From Acidobacteriota bacterium (GTDB lineage: Bacteria > Acidobacteriota > Thermoanaerobaculia > Multivoradales > JAGPDF01), in the NCBI GenBank assembly GCA_014584695.1, contig JACTMI010000010.1, forward strand, positions 1 through 64,000: a stretch of DNA of 64,000 nucleotides. Reading direction: 5' to 3'. Every line of letters begins with the position of its first letter. The first letter of the stretch is position 1. Below, in pieces: positions 33,442 through 58,338 of this stretch. Under the pieces are notes generated by a model. The model was not told the origin of the DNA and made no database searches. It saw nothing but the letters and a program-made list of their open reading frames with translations. The position numbers and the translations under genes were made by a program.

Positions 33442-34860
33442 ATGCCCTGTCGCGCCATTCGCGCCCTCGCTCTCTGCATCGCCGCGCTGCTCGCGGCCGC
33501 GCCGCTGCTCGGCGCCGACGGCTACGTCGACACCTCCTTCGGGACCGGCGGCCTCGCCACCTGGGGCGCCTTCGGTGCCGTGCGGCTTCAGGACGTGACG
33601 AGCACGGACGACCTGCTGATCGCGGTCGGCGGGTACGACTACGCCGGCGGCGACTCCCATCTCCACTGGTGGTCGGTCGGCCGCGACGGCTCGATCGAGC
33701 CGGATCACTTCTGCGAAGGCCTCACGAGCGACACCTTCCCGCTCTCTTTCGGCCTGTCCTCCGAGGCCCGGGTGGGCATCGTCGACCGCCAGGGACGCCT
33801 GGTCGTGGCCGGCTGGATGACGCAGCTCGGCAGCCCGGCCCAGAAGCGTCCGCTGGTCGCCCGGTTCGCCCTCGACACCGCCGGATGTGCTCTCGACGCG
33901 ACGTTCACGAGCAACGGCTGGGAGCTCTACGACGACGAGAGCTTCTGCGTCGCCGCCAGCTGCGAGGTCCTGGGGCTGGCCGCGGTGGCGGTGGAGACCG
34001 GAGCGGTGGCCTCGCTGCGGCTCGTCGCCCTAGTGCGCGCCGCTAGCGGCGGGCTCGGCGCATCGCGGCTCTTCCTCGTCCGGCTGACCTCTTCCGGCGC
34101 CCTCGATACGGCCTTCGGCGGCAACGGCTGGCTCGAAGTCCAGCACCCGCACCCGACGCACCCGACCCTGTTTCCGGAGGCGGCCCTGGCCATCGACTTG
34201 CGAGGCCGGCTGTACGTGGCCTTCACGCACTCGGACCCGGCCGACGCGCTGGACCTCGACGTGGGCGTCATGCGCTACAGCGCCGGCGGCGTTCGCGACA
34301 CCGGCTTCGGCACCTCCGGCCTGCTCGAAGTCAGGAACACGCCGCCCGGACCCGACCTCTGGGACTCGCGAGCGCACGAGATCGAGGTCGCCCCCACTGG
34401 CAACCTGGTGGTCACCCTGCGCGCAGTGGGACCAGGTGAGACTAGGTCCTACTCCTTCCTCTACCCGCCGAACGGCGGGCCGGCCATGAAGCTCCGGAGC
34501 TGGCAGGACACGCCGCCGCCCAGCGCCGTGGCGCAAGGCAACGGCTATTTCGTGGAGGCGGGGCGCATGCCGTTCTACGGCGCTGACTTCGACGCCCGTC
34601 GCTACCCGACGGCCGACCCGGAGACGCTCGATTCCTCCTTTGGCGACGACGGCGCGGCGCTCTATCACCTGCAGCCCGAGTGGGGTTTGCCGCACTTGGT
34701 CAAGGTCCATCTCTGGCACGGGCGGCTCGTCTACGCCGGCACGCGGCCGGCTCCGGCGTCCACGCAGTCGTTCCTCCTGCGCGCGACCAATGCCTATGTC
34801 TTCGCGGACGGCTTCGAGGGCGGCACCCTGGCGGCCTGGGGAGGTGGCGATCCGGATTGA
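33442..34860 (+). CDS. Secreted delta-60-repeat protein with DGFEGG C-terminal tail
   Basis: 472 aa. Signal peptide (MPCRAIRALALCIAALLAAA, cleavage near LLGADG). The mature protein contains spaced 'LD.(S/A/T)F(G)..G' repeats typical of delta-60 (beta-propeller-like) proteins: YVDTSFGTGGLATWG, ALDTAFGGNGWLEV, GVRDTGFGTSGLLEV and TLDSSFGDDGAALY. The last 20 residues read VFADGFEGGTLAAWG, a tail also found in the protein at 57709-58338. GGGAGG lies 5 nt before the ATG. Probably exported; function unknown. Confidence 0.85.
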   Translation: MPCRAIRALALCIAALLAAAPLLGADGYVDTSFGTGGLATWGAFGAVRLQDVTSTDDLLIAVGGYDYAGGDSHLHWWSVGRDGSIEPDHFCEGLTSDTFPLSFGLSSEARVGIVDRQGRLVVAGWMTQLGSPAQKRPLVARFALDTAGCALDATFTSNGWELYDDESFCVAASCEVLGLAAVAVETGAVASLRLVALVRAASGGLGASRLFLVRLTSSGALDTAFGGNGWLEVQHPHPTHPTLFPEAALAIDLRGRLYVAFTHSDPADALDLDVGVMRYSAGGVRDTGFGTSGLLEVRNTPPGPDLWDSRAHEIEVAPTGNLVVTLRAVGPGETRSYSFLYPPNGGPAMKLRSWQDTPPPSAVAQGNGYFVEAGRMPFYGADFDARRYPTADPETLDSSFGDDGAALYHLQPEWGLPHLVKVHLWHGRLVYAGTRPAPASTQSFLLRATNAYVFADGFEGGTLAAWGGGDPD

Positions 34861-49962: not shown

Positions 49963-51180
49963 ATGAAGCGAATCACGATGATGCTCGCAGTGGCGCTCCT
50001 CGTCGCGCCCGCCCTCGGAGCGCAGGCGTACGACGAGGTCGGCTCACCCGCCGTGCCGGCACCCCCCGAGGGCCAGCCCGGACCGGTTTGGGCGGGTCCG
50101 GAAGGGTCGGTGCTCTACGACAACGGCCCCTTCGTCACCCACCCCGGAGGCGGCTTCGGCGGCGCCGACGCGAGCGCCCTCCAGACGAATCTCGGACTCA
50201 ATGTCTACGGCTTCGGCCACGCCCTCTCCTCCGGTTTCCGGGTGGCCGACGACTTCACCGTGCCGGCGCCGGGCTGGCAGGTGAGCGCGATCACCTTCTT
50301 CGCCTACCAGACCGGTTCGACGACGACCTCGACGATCAATCACGTCAATCTGCGCATCTGGGACGGTCCTCCCGGCGCTCCCGGCAGCGCCGTCGTCTTT
50401 GGCGATACCGCGACCAACCGCCTCGCGGGAACCAGCTTCACCAACGTCTATCGACCCATCATCACGAACCTCCTGGAGAGCGCGCGACCGATGATGGCCA
50501 ACGTGGCGACCGTGGTGACGACCCTCGCTCCGGGGACCTACTGGCTGGACTGGCAGACCGGCGGCACCCTCGCTTCCGGACCGTGGGTGGTGCCGGTGAC
50601 CATCCTGGGACAGACCGCACCCGCCGGCGCCAACGCCCGGCAGTTCGACACCGCGAACTGGAACGCGCTGATCGACACGGGAACGGCCGCGGCGCCGCAA
50701 GACCTGCCCTTCATCATCGAGGGCGAGATCCTCGGCACCGACCTCGCGATCGCCAAGAGCTGCTCCGGTGGCGCTTCGCCGGTTGCCTGCACGATCACGG
50801 TCCAGAACTTGGGCACTCCGACCGCCACCAACGTCGTGGTGACCGATGTTCTCGCCGCCGGGCTGAGCTTCGCCGGCAGCACCTGCGGCGCCAGCGCCGT
50901 GGGCAATACGATCACCTGGGCGGTTGGCAGCCTCGCCGGCGGCGCCAGCGCGAGCTGTGTCTTCTCGATCGCGGTCGCCGCGGCCGGGACTTACGCCAAC
51001 ACGGCGATCGTGGCGAGTGACACCACCGATCCGGAGCCGTCGAACAACACCGCCACGACCACCTTCAGCGGCTACCTGAGCGTCCTCGAGATCCCGACGC
51101 TCAGCGCGGTGGGTCTGGCGCTGCTGGTCGGTCTCCTGGGCCTCGCCTCGCTCTTCCTCTTGCGCCGGCGCGCGGCCTGA
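49963..51180 (+). CDS. Secreted DUF11-repeat protein with IPTL-CTERM sorting signal
   Basis: 405 aa. Signal peptide MKRITMMLAVALLVAPALGA (cleavage near AQA). The first domain includes SSGFRVADDFTVPAPGWQVS and HVNLRIWDGPPGAPGSAVVF, related to the IPTL protein at 9908. Residues ~260-375 form a DUF11 (CARDB-like) repeat: LAIAKSCSGGASPVACTITV, NLGTPTATNVVVTDVLAAGL, ASCVFSIAVAAAGTYANTAI. The C-terminus is LEIPTLSAVGLALLVGLLGL, a short hydrophobic end and RRRAA: the IPTL-CTERM signal. GGGGAG lies before the ATG. Exported and sorted; function unknown. Confidence 0.87.
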   Translation: MKRITMMLAVALLVAPALGAQAYDEVGSPAVPAPPEGQPGPVWAGPEGSVLYDNGPFVTHPGGGFGGADASALQTNLGLNVYGFGHALSSGFRVADDFTVPAPGWQVSAITFFAYQTGSTTTSTINHVNLRIWDGPPGAPGSAVVFGDTATNRLAGTSFTNVYRPIITNLLESARPMMANVATVVTTLAPGTYWLDWQTGGTLASGPWVVPVTILGQTAPAGANARQFDTANWNALIDTGTAAAPQDLPFIIEGEILGTDLAIAKSCSGGASPVACTITVQNLGTPTATNVVVTDVLAAGLSFAGSTCGASAVGNTITWAVGSLAGGASASCVFSIAVAAAGTYANTAIVASDTTDPEPSNNTATTTFSGYLSVLEIPTLSAVGLALLVGLLGLASLFLLRRRAA

Positions 51181-51988: not shown

Positions 51989-52102
51989 GGGGGCAAGGCC
52001 CCCTTCGACGAGGCGTGCGCCCCTGGGGACCCCCATGGAGGGTCGGCTCTCGTGTCCTTTCCGACCCGTGACGGGGTTTCACTCTCCCCTCAGGAGGTAG
52101 TC

Positions 52103-55100
52103 ATGCGCTGCTCGCGGACGGCACCCGCCTGCCCCCTCGCCCTCGGCCTGCTCTTCGCTCTCCTGCCCGCCGCGGCGCTCGCGCAAGGCGGCTCGTACAC
52201 GGTCACCGCGCTCGCTGACAGCGGCCCCGGCACGCTGCGCGCGGCGATCGAGCTGGCCAACGCCGACAGCGGGCCGTCGACGATCGGCTTCGACCCCGGC
52301 CTCGCGGGAGGCACCATCCTCCTCGCGTCGCCGCTTCCGGACCTGTGGGAGAACGGGACCACGATCGACGGCGACCTCGACGGCGATTGCCAGCCCGACA
52401 TCCGCATCGATGGCGACGCGCTCGCGAACGGCGGGATGCTCTACGTGCACTCCGCGGAGAACCTGATCCGTGGGTTGGCTTTCACTCGTTTCCCCCCGTG
52501 CGGGCAGGGTGGGAGTTTCTGGCTGCAGGGCACGGCGACGTCGGGCAACGCCCTCGAGTGCAACTGGATCGGTCTCGACCTGGCCGGCACGGCGCTGCCG
52601 CGGCACTGCTACGGCGTGAAGCTCGTCGAGGGTGCCCACGACAACCGGATCGGGCCGGGCAACCGGATCACCGCCGGCGAGGCCGATGGAGTCTTCGTCG
52701 ACGACGGCAACAACAACGCCTTCCCGGAGTTCGTCGGCCTCACCCCTGATCTCGTGGCGGTCGTCCATCCGATCGACCTGGTCGACGACTGCGCCTTCTT
52801 GAGGATCCGCAACGGCGCGACGTTCTACGACTCGGGCGGCCATCCGTTCACCGAGAACATCGGCCTGCGGCTGACCGGGAGGGTCCAGATCTCCCAGGAC
52901 GGCGACTACTCGTTCGCGCTTCCTGGCCTCGACGACGCGGCGCGGCTCTTCGTGCTCGACGAGACTCTCGTCGACTGGCCCGGGGGCGGCACGCCGCCAC
53001 CTGCCGTCAAGCATCTCGCCGCGGGCGACCACGCGTTCCGCCTCGACTACTTCGAGGGCGGCGGCGCGGCGACGCTGCGGCTCGAGATCACCGGCCCGCA
53101 GCCGCCGGCGCTGACGACGTCCGGCAACACCGGCGGCTGCGCCTCGGGTCAGGTGGGGCTCTGCGGACAGTTCTACCAACTGCGCGTCCCGACCGAGCGG
53201 AACCGCATCACGAGAAACGCGATCTGGAGCAACAGCGGGAGTGGCATTTCGCTCGGGTGGGGCTGCGGTCCGCAGGTCGACGACCCGGACGATCTCGACC
53301 TCGGTCCCAACACCCTGCTCAACACTCCCGTCCTGACCGGCGTCTCGTGGGCGCAGATCCCCGGATCTGCCGACGCATTCAACGTCTCCGGAACCGCGCC
53401 CCCCGGCGCGACCGTGGAGGTCTTCGTCGGCGAGGGGATGCCCGACAGCCACGGCGAGGGGAAGGTCTACCTGGGCGACGGCGACGCCGACGGCAACGGC
53501 GACTTCTCCTTCCCGGTCGAGATCCCGCTCGGCCTCGTGGCGCCCCGCTTGACCGCCACCGCCACCGACGCGCTCGGCAACACCTCCGAGTTCGCGCTCA
53601 ACTTCGAATGGGAGAGCGGCCACGACGTGGTGACCGTGGCGAGCGGCGCGAGCGGGTTGCCCGACACGGTGGTGGAGATCCCGATTCACGTCCGCGACCT
53701 CGCGCACTCCCCGCTCGGCGTCGACCGGCCGGTCGGGGAGCGGAGCCAGGGCTTCGCGATCAAGGTCGCGTGGGATCCGGCCGGCGCCGTCGGCTACTCC
53801 GATTTCGCCCGCGCCGGGATCACCGCCGCTCTCACCCCCTCCTACGAGACCGTCGTCCGCTCGGGCAACACCGCGAGCTACGTTCTCCATTTCGACGAGA
53901 CCACGGATCCGGTGCCGTTCGCGCTCGACGCCGCCGCTCCCGGCGATCCGGTCGCGAAGCTCCTGCTCACCCTCGCGCCGCACGCTCCGGCGGGCCTGGT
54001 GACGCTCACCCTGGACCCCGTCACCGCCCTCGCCAATCAGGCCGGCACGATCGAGGAGACGGTCGGGCTCGGCACCCTCGTCCTGGTCTCCGGCGGCCTC
54101 GTGGTCGAGTCGAACGCAGTGCGCGACCTGCTCGCCTGGCCGCTCTCCGCCTCCGAGATTCACCTCGGCTGGAACGACCCGAACGCCGGCGAGACCGGCT
54201 TCCGCGTCGAGCGCTCGCCGGACGGCGCCTCCTGGGCCCCCATCGGCGCCGTGGGGCCCGATGACCTCGAGTTCCTCGACTCCGGGCTCGCCCCGGCGAC
54301 GCTCTACTTCTACCGGCTGGTCACGCTCCTGGCCGGCGGCGACGGCCACCCCTCTCCCGCCGTGGCCACCAGCACCCATGCGGCCACGGCCGCTCATGTC
54401 TGCGTCCGCGAGCTCTCCGGCCCGCGGACGGCGATCGGGCAGACCGCGATCGCGCGCGGCCCCGGCGAGTGGGCGGTGGTGTGGGCCGACCAGGTCGATG
54501 GCCGCCAGAGCGACCTCTTCTTCCAGCGGCTGGCGTCGGGTGACCTCTCGGCGCTGGGACCGTCGGTCCAGGTCACCGCGACGGACGCCGTCAGTTCCGT
54601 GCCGGTGCTGCTCTGGAACGGCTCGCACTACGGCCTGTTCTGGCGCGAGGAGCTGCGCGGCGCGCCCGGTCCCGAAGCGCTGCAGAACCGCCACTTCTTC
54701 GCCCTCCTGAACCCCGACGGCACGAAGGTACGCGGCGACGTGCCTCTTCCCGCCGCTCCAGGCTGGTCTCCCTTCAACATGGAGCACGCCTTTGGCTGGG
54801 ACGGCACCCACTGGGGCCTCTTCTTCGCCGAATGGACGACCTATCCGTACGTCAAGCTCGTCTACTACCGCCTCGACGAGGACGGTGACCTCGTGCTCGG
54901 CCCGCTCGACGTCGTCACCCCGCCCGACTCCTGGGCCGGGCAAGCCGTGGCCTGGGCCCCCGGCCCGGGCCTCTGGGGGCTCGCATGGAACGAGTCCCCG
55001 GACTGGTACGGCGAGTCCGAAATGCGATTCCAGCGCGTGGAGGCGTCGACCGGCCTGCCCGTCGGTCCCGTGGTGTTGCTCGGGACCTTCACCGGCCCCG

Positions 55101-57712
55101 ATCAGGGGGTGGCAGCAGCCTGGGATCCTTCGGCGCCCCCGGAAGGCGCGTGGGTGGTGGCCTGGAGCCAGTACGCCATGGACGGCACCGACGCCCCCGT
55201 CATGCTCCGCAGAATCGCGGCGGACGGCACCGTGCTGGGCGGCGCGCCGACGCGGCTCTCGGACGACTTCGATCCGGTCAACGGCGTCTACGACCTCCTG
55301 CCCACGCTGGCCGTGACCGGTTCCGGGGAGATCCGCGCCTTCGCCATGAGCTTCGATCCCGAGAGCGGTGCCGAGGAGGTCGGAATGCTGCGCGCCGACG
55401 GCGAAGGCAACCGCCTCGGCAGCCGGGTTTTCCTCACCCCGCCCGACGGCTGGAGGATCGACCGCCCCCACGTGGCGAACGAAGGCAGCGAGCAAGCGGT
55501 CGTCTTCCGGGATTCGACCCACGGCACGCTGGAGGTCTCCGCGGTCGCGGTCGACGTGCTCGGTGCCGCAGGGCCGCAGGTCTGGGTCACCGCCGGTCAC
55601 TCGAGGGCCGGCGCGGCCGGAATCCCGCCGGCCGGGCTGGCACCGCTCGGCTCCGGATTCGTGGCTCTCTGGTCCGATCACCCCACTTCCGATCCGAATA
55701 GCCCACCGCAGTTCTATGGCCAGATCGTCGATGGCACGGGCGGCACCGTGGCATCGCTCGCCCCGCTGGCGGCCAGTCCGAGTTTTGGACTGCCGGCCCT
55801 GGTGACGGTGGGGGGCGAGTTCGCCGTGGCTTGGCGGCCAGCGACCGGCGGCGTCGCCTTCGCCCGCTTCGACGGCATGGGGAACCCGATCGTCGGGGAG
55901 GTCCAAGTGGCCACCGTGGGCATGCAGCCCACCGCGGTCGGCTTCGACGGCGAGCGCTACGGCGTCGTCTTCCGTCGCGGCTCCCCGGATGCCTGGTGGT
56001 TCGTGCCGGTCTGGCCGGACGGTACCGTCGCCGGCACCGAGCGCTCGCTCTTCGCGCCGACCGCCGGGCAGCCGCCCGTCCTGCTCTGGGTCGGCAACGG
56101 CTGGGCGCTGGTCTGGCGCGGCAGCGACTCGCTGCTCTACTACGGCCTCTTCGACCGCGACGGCGGCGTCCTGGTGCCGGCGCTCCCGCTCACCGGCCCG
56201 CGCATGAACTCGGCGCGCAACCAGTTCAGCGCGTCGTTCGACGGCAGCCGGATCCTGGTCGCCTGGTCCGATCATCCGGGGGCCGATCCGCCGGCGACGG
56301 ACATCTACTTCACGATCTTCGAGCTCGACGGCTCGATCGTCGTGGCGCCTACCATCGCCATCGGCACGGTCGCGCGCGAGAGCTCGCCCCAAGTCGTCTG
56401 GCGAGACGGCGCGTTTCATCTCTTCTTTTCCGGAGGCATCGCGGGGTGGGTCCACGAGGTGGAGATCCAGTCGGACGGCACCCTGGTCCCGGGCGAGCGC
56501 CACTGGACGAACCGCGGCGGTCCGGCGGCGGTCGCGAGCAATGGCGCCGTGACGGCGCTGGTCTGGGGTCAGGGCGAGCTCTACCTGATGACCGACGCCT
56601 GCCTCGAGGACGCTACCGCGCCACCTTGCCCCGACCTGGGAGTCTCCTCGGTCGGCCACCAGGTCCACCTCGCCTGGTCCGGCGGCGACGACCCCGAGTC
56701 CGGGCACTGGCGCACCTTGCTCTACCGCGGCGAGGCGAGCCAGCCGGGCAGCGAGCGGAGCCTGGCCGAGCTGTTCGCCTCGACGGACCACTTCGACGAC
56801 GGCGGGTTCACCGCCGGCACCACCCACACGTATCAGGTGCTCGCCATCAACGGCGCCTTCCGCAGCTCGGAGAGCTGCCCGCTGCTCTCCTACTCGACCC
56901 TGCGCGGCGACGCCAACGGCGACGGGATTCTCGACCCCGCCGACGTCTTCTACCTGATCCACCACCTGCTCGCCGGCGGTCCGCCGCCGCGCGGTGACGC
57001 CGACGCCAATGGCTCCGGCGGGGTGACGGTCGCCGACGTCTTCTACCTCGTCAACTACTTCTATGCCGGCGGCCCGGCACCGGTCTGGAGTGGCGAGACC
57101 AGGTACCTCGCGGCGGTCTCGGGTTCACTCGCGGCCACCGCGACGGCAACCGACAGGGCCCTCGCCGGCGAGCTCTCGCGCGACGCGCCTGCGCCTCCGG
57201 CCTCCGTGCTCCGGATCGGCAAGGGCACCTCGACGCCGGGCGGTACATTGGCTCTCCCGGTCCACCTGCTCGACGCGACGGGCACCCCGCTCGGCGAGGA
57301 ACGCCGGTCGGGAGCGCGCATCCAGTCGCTCGCCCTGCAGGTGGTTGCGCTGCCGTCCTCCGCAGTGGCCTCGATCGAGCTGCGCCGCGCCGGTGCGACG
57401 CTCCGCTACGAGCCGCTGTTCGAGTCGAGACCCACGACGTCCTCTGGAGCGGCGCTGGTTGCCACCTTCGACGAGGCGCTCGCGCCGCTGCCGATCCCCG
57501 CCAGCAACCCGGCCTGGGGCCGCCCGGGTCCCGGCACCCTGGTCGCCGAGCTGGTGGTGACCCTGGCCGAAGGGACCCCCGCGGGCGGCTTCGTCGAGCT
57601 CCGGCTCGATCCCGCCGGCACCCTGCTGGCCAACCAGGCCGGCACGCTCAGCGAGAGCGCGCGCAACGGCTGGCTGACTCTGGTCGACGGGCGACTCGAG
57701 GTGCGACCGTGA
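52103..57712 (+). CDS. Giant secreted multidomain protein with dockerin-like and cohesin-like domains
   Basis: 1,869 aa; AGGAGG lies 5 nt before the ATG. Signal peptide 1-28 (ending AAALAQGG). A CSLREA-type beta-helix start follows (~30-210: YTVTALADSGPGTLRAAIEL), then a PA14-like domain (~245-335: RLTGRVQISQDGDYSFALPG). Cohesin-like domain 1 is at ~505-670 (DTVVEIPIHVRDLAHSPLG; TLTLDPVTALANQAGTIEET) and fibronectin-III 1 at ~675-757. A long series of ~45-70-aa 'WAVVWAD..DG' beta-propeller-like repeats spans ~765-1500, then fibronectin-III 2 (~1510-1595). A type-I dockerin-like pair is at ~1600-1660 (RGDANGDGILDPADVFYLIH; ADANGSGGVTVADVFYLVNY), and cohesin-like domain 2 ends the protein. GTGA overlap with the next gene. 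Confidence 0.88.
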   Translation: MRCSRTAPACPLALGLLFALLPAAALAQGGSYTVTALADSGPGTLRAAIELANADSGPSTIGFDPGLAGGTILLASPLPDLWENGTTIDGDLDGDCQPDIRIDGDALANGGMLYVHSAENLIRGLAFTRFPPCGQGGSFWLQGTATSGNALECNWIGLDLAGTALPRHCYGVKLVEGAHDNRIGPGNRITAGEADGVFVDDGNNNAFPEFVGLTPDLVAVVHPIDLVDDCAFLRIRNGATFYDSGGHPFTENIGLRLTGRVQISQDGDYSFALPGLDDAARLFVLDETLVDWPGGGTPPPAVKHLAAGDHAFRLDYFEGGGAATLRLEITGPQPPALTTSGNTGGCASGQVGLCGQFYQLRVPTERNRITRNAIWSNSGSGISLGWGCGPQVDDPDDLDLGPNTLLNTPVLTGVSWAQIPGSADAFNVSGTAPPGATVEVFVGEGMPDSHGEGKVYLGDGDADGNGDFSFPVEIPLGLVAPRLTATATDALGNTSEFALNFEWESGHDVVTVASGASGLPDTVVEIPIHVRDLAHSPLGVDRPVGERSQGFAIKVAWDPAGAVGYSDFARAGITAALTPSYETVVRSGNTASYVLHFDETTDPVPFALDAAAPGDPVAKLLLTLAPHAPAGLVTLTLDPVTALANQAGTIEETVGLGTLVLVSGGLVVESNAVRDLLAWPLSASEIHLGWNDPNAGETGFRVERSPDGASWAPIGAVGPDDLEFLDSGLAPATLYFYRLVTLLAGGDGHPSPAVATSTHAATAAHVCVRELSGPRTAIGQTAIARGPGEWAVVWADQVDGRQSDLFFQRLASGDLSALGPSVQVTATDAVSSVPVLLWNGSHYGLFWREELRGAPGPEALQNRHFFALLNPDGTKVRGDVPLPAAPGWSPFNMEHAFGWDGTHWGLFFAEWTTYPYVKLVYYRLDEDGDLVLGPLDVVTPPDSWAGQAVAWAPGPGLWGLAWNESPDWYGESEMRFQRVEASTGLPVGPVVLLGTFTGPDQGVAAAWDPSAPPEGAWVVAWSQYAMDGTDAPVMLRRIAADGTVLGGAPTRLSDDFDPVNGVYDLLPTLAVTGSGEIRAFAMSFDPESGAEEVGMLRADGEGNRLGSRVFLTPPDGWRIDRPHVANEGSEQAVVFRDSTHGTLEVSAVAVDVLGAAGPQVWVTAGHSRAGAAGIPPAGLAPLGSGFVALWSDHPTSDPNSPPQFYGQIVDGTGGTVASLAPLAASPSFGLPALVTVGGEFAVAWRPATGGVAFARFDGMGNPIVGEVQVATVGMQPTAVGFDGERYGVVFRRGSPDAWWFVPVWPDGTVAGTERSLFAPTAGQPPVLLWVGNGWALVWRGSDSLLYYGLFDRDGGVLVPALPLTGPRMNSARNQFSASFDGSRILVAWSDHPGADPPATDIYFTIFELDGSIVVAPTIAIGTVARESSPQVVWRDGAFHLFFSGGIAGWVHEVEIQSDGTLVPGERHWTNRGGPAAVASNGAVTALVWGQGELYLMTDACLEDATAPPCPDLGVSSVGHQVHLAWSGGDDPESGHWRTLLYRGEASQPGSERSLAELFASTDHFDDGGFTAGTTHTYQVLAINGAFRSSESCPLLSYSTLRGDANGDGILDPADVFYLIHHLLAGGPPPRGDADANGSGGVTVADVFYLVNYFYAGGPAPVWSGETRYLAAVSGSLAATATATDRALAGELSRDAPAPPASVLRIGKGTSTPGGTLALPVHLLDATGTPLGEERRSGARIQSLALQVVALPSSAVASIELRRAGATLRYEPLFESRPTTSSGAALVATFDEALAPLPIPASNPAWGRPGPGTLVAELVVTLAEGTPAGGFVELRLDPAGTLLANQAGTLSESARNGWLTLVDGRLEVRP

Positions 57713-58338
57713 GGCCTGCGACGCGCCGCGGTCTCCTGCTCGCCCTCGCGGGTCAGCTTGCGATCGTCAGCGTCGCCCACGGGCAGGACGAACTGAGGGT
57801 GGGAACGGGCACCGGCCTGCCGGGCGGATCGGCGAAGGTCGCGCTGCGGGTGCGCGATCTCGCCGGCACCCTGCTCGACGAGGGCGACGGGCCGGGGCTC
57901 GAGATCCAGGGCTTCGCCCTGCGCATCGAGTACCCGGCCGCCGCCATCACCTCCTGCGACTTCTTCCGGGCCGGCGTGACCTCGGGTCAGCCACCCCTGA
58001 TGAGCTCCGTTGGCCGGGGGGCCGGCTACTGTTACGTGCTGTTCGCCTTCTCCGAGACCAACGCATCGCTCACTTTCACCCTCGATCGCCCGCCGCCCGG
58101 CGACACGGTCGGCAACTTCCTCCTCGGCCTTTCGCCGGGACTCGTGCTCGGCGACGGCTTCGTCGTCAGCGCCGTGGCCTCGACGGCGATCCTGGACAAC
58201 GGCCAGGGCACGCTCTCGGAGACCCCGCAGAACGGCCATCTCGCGATCGCGGACGGCTGGGTCGAGGTCACGACGCTGGTTTTCCAGGACGGCTTCGAGT
58301 CCGGCGACCTCACCGCCTGGTCAGAGGCCCGACCCTGA
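57709..58338 (+). CDS. Small secreted cohesin-like protein with DGFESG tail
   Basis: 209 aa from a GTG overlapping the previous stop. Signal peptide RGLLLALAGQLAIVSVAHGQ. One domain resembling the two cohesin-like modules of the upstream protein: LRVGTGTGLPGGSAKVALRV, LEIQGFALRIEYPAAAITSC and AILDNGQGTLSETPQNGHLA, paralleling the 'ANQAGTLSE...G.L...DG' ending there. The tail VFQDGFESGDLTAWSEARP is shared in form with the delta-60 protein at 33442. Translational coupling suggests a partner of the large protein. The 3' end overlaps the convergent neighbour by 18 bp. Confidence 0.82.
   Translation: MRPATRRGLLLALAGQLAIVSVAHGQDELRVGTGTGLPGGSAKVALRVRDLAGTLLDEGDGPGLEIQGFALRIEYPAAAITSCDFFRAGVTSGQPPLMSSVGRGAGYCYVLFAFSETNASLTFTLDRPPPGDTVGNFLLGLSPGLVLGDGFVVSAVASTAILDNGQGTLSETPQNGHLAIADGWVEVTTLVFQDGFESGDLTAWSEARP

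Follow-up and report, generated by a model that had tools for sequence, protein, structure and literature searches.

A dockerin and three divergent cohesin-like modules in a two-gene operon of Thermoanaerobaculia (Acidobacteriota): a putative surface-display system

Clostridia use cohesin and dockerin, a calcium-dependent pair, to assemble cellulose-digesting machines. What would both partners do together in one operon of a bacterium from another phylum? The question is raised by a locus in contig 6 of a 48-contig, 4.35-Mb genome of Acidobacteriota, class Thermoanaerobaculia, within a stretch of 64,000 nucleotides (the window). The original prediction was of two translationally coupled genes for secreted proteins, with a paired dockerin and three cohesin-like modules, that would form a self-assembling extracellular scaffold without visible glycosidase. 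Both open reading frames are present as first noted, and the features located in them are the following:

52092-52098 (+): Shine-Dalgarno sequence AGGAGGT of the large gene
52103-57712 (+): large, putatively secreted protein P0001, 1,869 aa, ATG start
52853-53101 (+): PA14 domain of P0001 (Pfam PF07691, 26.2 bits, above the cut-off, in a scan of the N-terminal part alone)
53369-53590 (+): Big_6 Ig-like domain of P0001 (Pfam PF17936, 29.5 bits)
53621-54109 (+): cohesin-like module 1, P0001 residues 507-669 (member of the module family, fold by homology)
54116-54367 (+): fibronectin type III domain (fn3) of P0001 (Pfam PF00041, 25.1 bits)
56903-57082 (+): type-I-like dockerin of P0001 with two F-hand repeats (Pfam, phmmer, operon-type profile, loop ligands)
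57200-57706 (+): cohesin-like module 2, C-terminal, P0001 residues 1699-1869 (AF2 model, Foldseek, VIA)
57709-57712 (+): GTGA stop/start overlap of the large and small genes
57709-58338 (+): small, putatively secreted cohesin protein P0002, 209 aa
57784-58272 (+): cohesin-like module 3, P0002 residues 26-188 (AF2 model, Foldseek, VIA)
58288-58335 (+): C-terminal tag DGFESGDLTAWSEARP of P0002 (motif recurring near gene ends in the genome)

The GTG start of the small gene overlaps the TGA stop of the large one, and both products open with a signal-peptide-like segment, hence both are predicted to be exported, as had been proposed. P0001 begins with its signal peptide and a beta-helix-like region, followed by the PA14 and Big_6 domains, module 1, fn3, around 800 aa of propeller-like repeats, the dockerin, a linker and module 2, the beta-helix and propeller assignments being a reading of the sequence only. 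P0002 showed no Pfam domain match. The absence of a visible glycosidase also held, as no glycoside hydrolase domain was found in the operon. A scan for sigma-70 promoters gave no match, a result that is uninformative for a GC-rich genome. A DUF11 repeat protein with a tail of the IPTL-CTERM / midcut-by-XrtH type is encoded nearby (49966-51180 of the window, +).

The dockerin occupies residues from about 1602 to 1656 of P0001 and, like a type I dockerin (PF00404), has two EF/F-hand repeats whose calcium ligands are intact: the ligand positions of its loops, DANGDGILDPAD and DANGSGGVTVAD, are canonical in both (DNDDD and DNSTD). Thus the paired dockerin outside Clostridia is confirmed. In the Pfam profile checks, Dockerin_1, with a cut-off of 22.9 bits, fell on either side of it, with 25.6 bits in a frame search and 19.1 bits in a whole-protein scan, and Cohesin gave no match to the three modules. 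A phmmer search with this dockerin ranked cellulosomal dockerins of solved structure highest (2y3n_B, E 1.4e-5). The dockerins of relatives belong with it to one class, with the consensus GDANGDGxVxxxD[IV]FYL[VI]NYLFxGGPAP in both repeats, and the profile of this operon-type class, which includes the P0001 sequence itself, gave 104 bits on P0001. Type I dockerins recognise their partner through loop positions 10-11, and matching recognition residues in their two repeats permit two binding orientations. Here the two repeats agreed at these positions in 16 of 28 cases, versus 6.8 expected (p 1e-4); in the window dockerin just one of the two is equal.

The three modules are mutually homologous (around 165 aa in P0001, 33-41% identity, BLASTP E 1e-21 between modules 1 and 3) and conserve a stretch of around 20 residues, RDxSGTPLGxDxxxGxRIQ, between strands 2 and 3. 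None of them matched Pfam Cohesin (PF00963) over its cut-off, and nothing useful came from scanning them against Pfam and NCBIfam. Among 22 members of the module family, Pfam Cohesin produced weak matches in four, with a best E of 0.0046. When a profile of these 22 members was run against the PDB sequences, its first four matches were scaffoldin cohesins (E 0.0019-0.061), and a profile of three sequences found no cohesin there.

The fold was studied through AF2 models of P0002 and of the P0001 tail (dockerin plus module 2), built on alignments of 6 and 7 rows, respectively, taken from the window and locus L025 only. Mean pLDDT was 64 for P0002 and 67 for the tail, with values of 80-95 in the sandwich core and low ones in the dockerin part. 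Solved cohesins came out on top in Foldseek: they were all 22 matches of the P0002 model with E<=0.001 (best E 6.4e-7) and all 50 matches listed for module 2 (best E 3.5e-11). In VIA-align, where models without a clear match typically peak at Z 7-8, module 2 aligned with the ScaC cohesin 4uyp at Z 16.9 (140 of 144 residues, rmsd 2.0) and module 3 at Z 14.6 (138 residues, rmsd 2.9), so that both models match the nine-stranded cohesin jelly-roll across the whole domain. The structural check on which the original prediction had made its cohesins depend thus came out in favour of modules 2 and 3, and module 1 is assigned the same fold because it is homologous to modules 2 and 3; a dockerin and three cohesin-type modules do share one operon. 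As fold and sequence evidence agree, the family is best described, on these models, as a divergent cohesin lineage overlooked by sequence models, and we do not file it under PF00963 because it stays below that cut-off.

A genome-wide count, also proposed at the outset, placed the new-type cohesins of the window genome, three in number, all in the operon (52103-58338). Pfam detected two dockerins, in P0001 and in an SGNH-type hydrolase, and a single Cohesin, within a GspD-like secretin open reading frame (L001, contig 7 of the window genome, G000, 170068-170433). The C-terminal region of GspD-like secretins of the class (L001, L094-L104) scores as Pfam Cohesin; hhalign found no relationship between these Pfam-detected secretin cohesins and the operon-type modules. 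The hydrolase, an SGNH/GDSL-type protein that appears from its sequence to be secreted, carries a C-terminal dockerin of another type (L002, L074, L077), and the secretin cohesin could be the partner of that dockerin.

If the modules keep a cohesin fold, do they bind dockerins? Their role could be confined to that of a beta-sandwich spacer or a ligand-binding part in surface proteins, the dockerin having some other partner or serving as a calcium-stabilised cap. Cohesin folds with no known dockerin partner do occur (in TMEM132, PMC6030884, and in the GspD-like secretins of the class), and module 1, between Ig-like and fn3 domains, is placed like a spacer. We nevertheless consider this reading unlikely, since the modules are tightly linked to, and co-occur with, one dockerin class across architectures, and since a spacer role would hardly account for genes that encode a lone module next to a dockerin gene.

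The linkage was measured in relatives. Of 396 genomes sampled in the phylum, 8 carry the module family, as do 12 of 149 genomes of the class, and its spread is patchy: within family f1 only the window genome and G413 have modules, and the same two alone have an operon-type dockerin. Of the 32 Pfam dockerins in the 12 genomes, 17 are less than 4 kb from a full module, most of them less than 700 bp (0.10 expected), and the operon-type profile detects dockerins in 12/12 module genomes versus 7/137 other genomes of the class, the latter as weak matches, both statistics ignoring the relatedness of the genomes; in G496 the match is partial, at a contig end. The usual gene order is a dockerin gene followed by one or two cohesin genes (L027 is divergent). 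The linked dockerins sit in the C-terminal part of proteins of unrelated make-up:

L028, L029, L033: Ig/PKD/TIG repeats, adhesin-like
L030: DUF7948/propeller/DUF11
L031: esterase-like protein
L027: glucose/sorbosone dehydrogenase-like
L035: Kelch
L115: RHS
L112, L114: FG-GAP

The linkage is therefore not solely due to the inheritance of one gene, and this variety of carriers, as read from their predicted domains, is a stronger point than the linkage and co-occurrence statistics. A reduced cohesin-like module that lacks the strand 2-3 loop directly follows the dockerin at the C-termini of L028, L029, L032, L033 and L026. The most extended case is the metagenome-assembled genome G492, with 23 operon-type dockerin matches in at least 20 dockerin proteins and only two cohesin genes detected (loci L171-L185, L116, L118). 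Most of its dockerins form the very end of the protein, preceded by a TIG domain, many are missed by Pfam Dockerin_1, and the carriers include subtilase, Calx-beta, PD40 and FG-GAP proteins. Many clients for few receptors is the pattern that would be expected of a display system, though this genome is 83% complete. None of the papers searched mentioned Thermoanaerobaculia together with dockerin.

How could the small cohesin protein act as a receptor? The dockerin gene of family f7 is followed by a gene for a cohesin protein of around 220 aa with an IPTL-CTERM tail (23.1 in L028 and 21.5 in L033, versus the NCBI cut-off of 20.5). IPTL-CTERM tails are taken as envelope-sorting signals of exosortase systems. 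NCBIfam recognises no sorting signal in P0002, whose end is FQDGFESGDLTAWSEARP, with the motif DGFESGD. This motif lies 15-20 residues or less from the stop in 10/10 exact-pattern genes of the window genome, and 23 of 29 further samples were C-terminal, most of the others preceding a domain of around 200-260 aa. Tags of this type occur in 59/148 genomes of the class, with as many as 111 copies in a single genome of the order, and are absent from family f7; a reversed-pattern control gave 0 in every listed genome. The consensus is [LF]FxDGFE[ST]GDxSxWS, seen in the window at 58288-58335 and at 34807 (+) and elsewhere at loci L122-L160. With no match in NCBIfam and none found in a literature search, it is a candidate for an uncatalogued sorting or secretion tag. 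The presence of different tails at the same place of the same protein, IPTL-CTERM in f7 and DGFESGD in the window, fits an anchoring role.

Based on these equivalent tails of the small cohesin proteins, we propose P0002 as an envelope receptor for P0001. Both proteins would be exported via their signal peptides, and P0002, a single-cohesin receptor, would be kept at the cell envelope by its C-terminal tag. The P0001 dockerin would then bind the P0002 cohesin with calcium, and the docking would display the PA14, Ig-like, fn3 and propeller-like parts of P0001 on the surface. The two cohesins of P0001 may be extra docking points, as in an adaptor scaffoldin, recruiting another copy or another dockerin protein. 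The operon would thus be a non-cellulosomal cohesin-dockerin surface-display system of Thermoanaerobaculia, with P0002 anchoring P0001, a reading that we hold with moderate confidence. The self-assembling scaffold first imagined is possible, yet it is not the best-supported version: since relatives keep the pairing of a dockerin gene with a following cohesin gene, and a sorting tail, the evidence favours anchoring over head-to-tail polymerisation, and surface display through a single-cohesin receptor over self-assembly.

The C-terminus of P0001 suggests another arrangement, in which the dockerin folds back on the module around 40 residues downstream and stiffens or locks the end of the protein, the small protein being secondary. 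In families f1 and f7 the large proteins do usually end in a dockerin with a module, often reduced, right behind it. But the reduced modules lack the N-terminal part (they cover profile positions 42-161 only), separate full modules are usually retained next door, and linked dockerin proteins of other lineages (L030, L031, L027, L115) have no C-terminal module, all of which makes such capping in cis quite improbable.

A minimal cellulosome-type scaffold with client dockerin enzymes encoded elsewhere is very unlikely, because, although the second dockerin of the window genome is on a hydrolase that seems to be secreted and G492 has one subtilase among its dockerin proteins, none of the dockerin proteins scanned has a glycoside hydrolase domain and the hydrolase dockerin is conserved in family f1 even in the module-free genomes G414 and G412. 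Being of another type and present without modules, this dockerin is not a clear client, and the hydrolase as a dedicated client was rejected as the main idea. Neither of the two Pfam dockerins of the window genome is borne by a glycoside hydrolase, and in P0001, with its two cohesins and dockerin, Pfam detects no cellulose-binding module.

A broader version of the surface-display proposal, possible but at present doubtful, is that a system of this kind replaces direct surface attachment throughout the Acidobacteriota, with divergent cohesins, anchored by C-terminal tags specific to each lineage, that would receive many unrelated, mostly non-enzymatic secreted proteins ending in a dockerin, and G492 as its extreme.

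Few known receptor-ligand pairs bind as strongly as cohesin and dockerin (PMC6030884). A survey that covered 305,693 bacterial genomes and required HMM-detected cohesins and dockerin-fused hydrolases reported cellulosomes chiefly in the four genera Acetivibrio, Ruminococcus, Ruminiclostridium and Clostridium, and its use of AlphaFold revealed that HMM models undercount cohesins (PMC11557425). The Acidobacteriota modules are a lineage missed by the sequence models with which such pairs are counted. Here a cohesin family missed by Pfam is paired with a dockerin in an operon, with no digestive enzyme. The operon points to a means by which large secreted proteins are held at the cell surface and, if this is true, a hydrolase-free family of another phylum, operon-paired with dockerins, would mean that cohesin and dockerin serve surface display in general. 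Each cohesin gene adjoins its presumed partner, and these are candidate orthogonal pairs for binding tests and protein engineering.

We compared the operon with known systems. With the cellulosomal type I pair (CipA/ScaC of Acetivibrio/Clostridium; 4uyp, 1ohz) it has in common the cohesin fold, a calcium dockerin of two repeats whose recognition residues are nearly symmetric, and the combination of an adaptor-like protein, bearing cohesins and a dockerin, with a separate single-cohesin protein. Whereas the cellulosomal systems use SLH domains as anchor, a putative sorting tail is found here, in an acidobacterial host; the operon has no cellulose-binding module or glycoside hydrolase, and its modules are only about 10-20% identical in structural alignments, lie under Pfam Cohesin and add the loop of around 20 residues between strands 2 and 3. 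Peer et al. reportedly described cohesin and dockerin modules outside cellulosomes in 2009, and the cohesins of Archaeoglobus (2xdh, Z 13.7) and of Clostridium perfringens GH84C (2w1n, Z 12.0) share their fold with the module 2 model; by contrast, the operon family is invisible to Pfam and its partners are in one conserved operon, with the receptor gene directly downstream. The tail here is IPTL-CTERM in f7 or DGFESGD in the window genome, and not a Gram-positive sortase signal as in the cell-surface proteins ScaE and ScaG of R. flavefaciens (2zf9, 4wkz; Z 12.3 and 11.7), which, like P0002, have one cohesin of this fold in a small protein.
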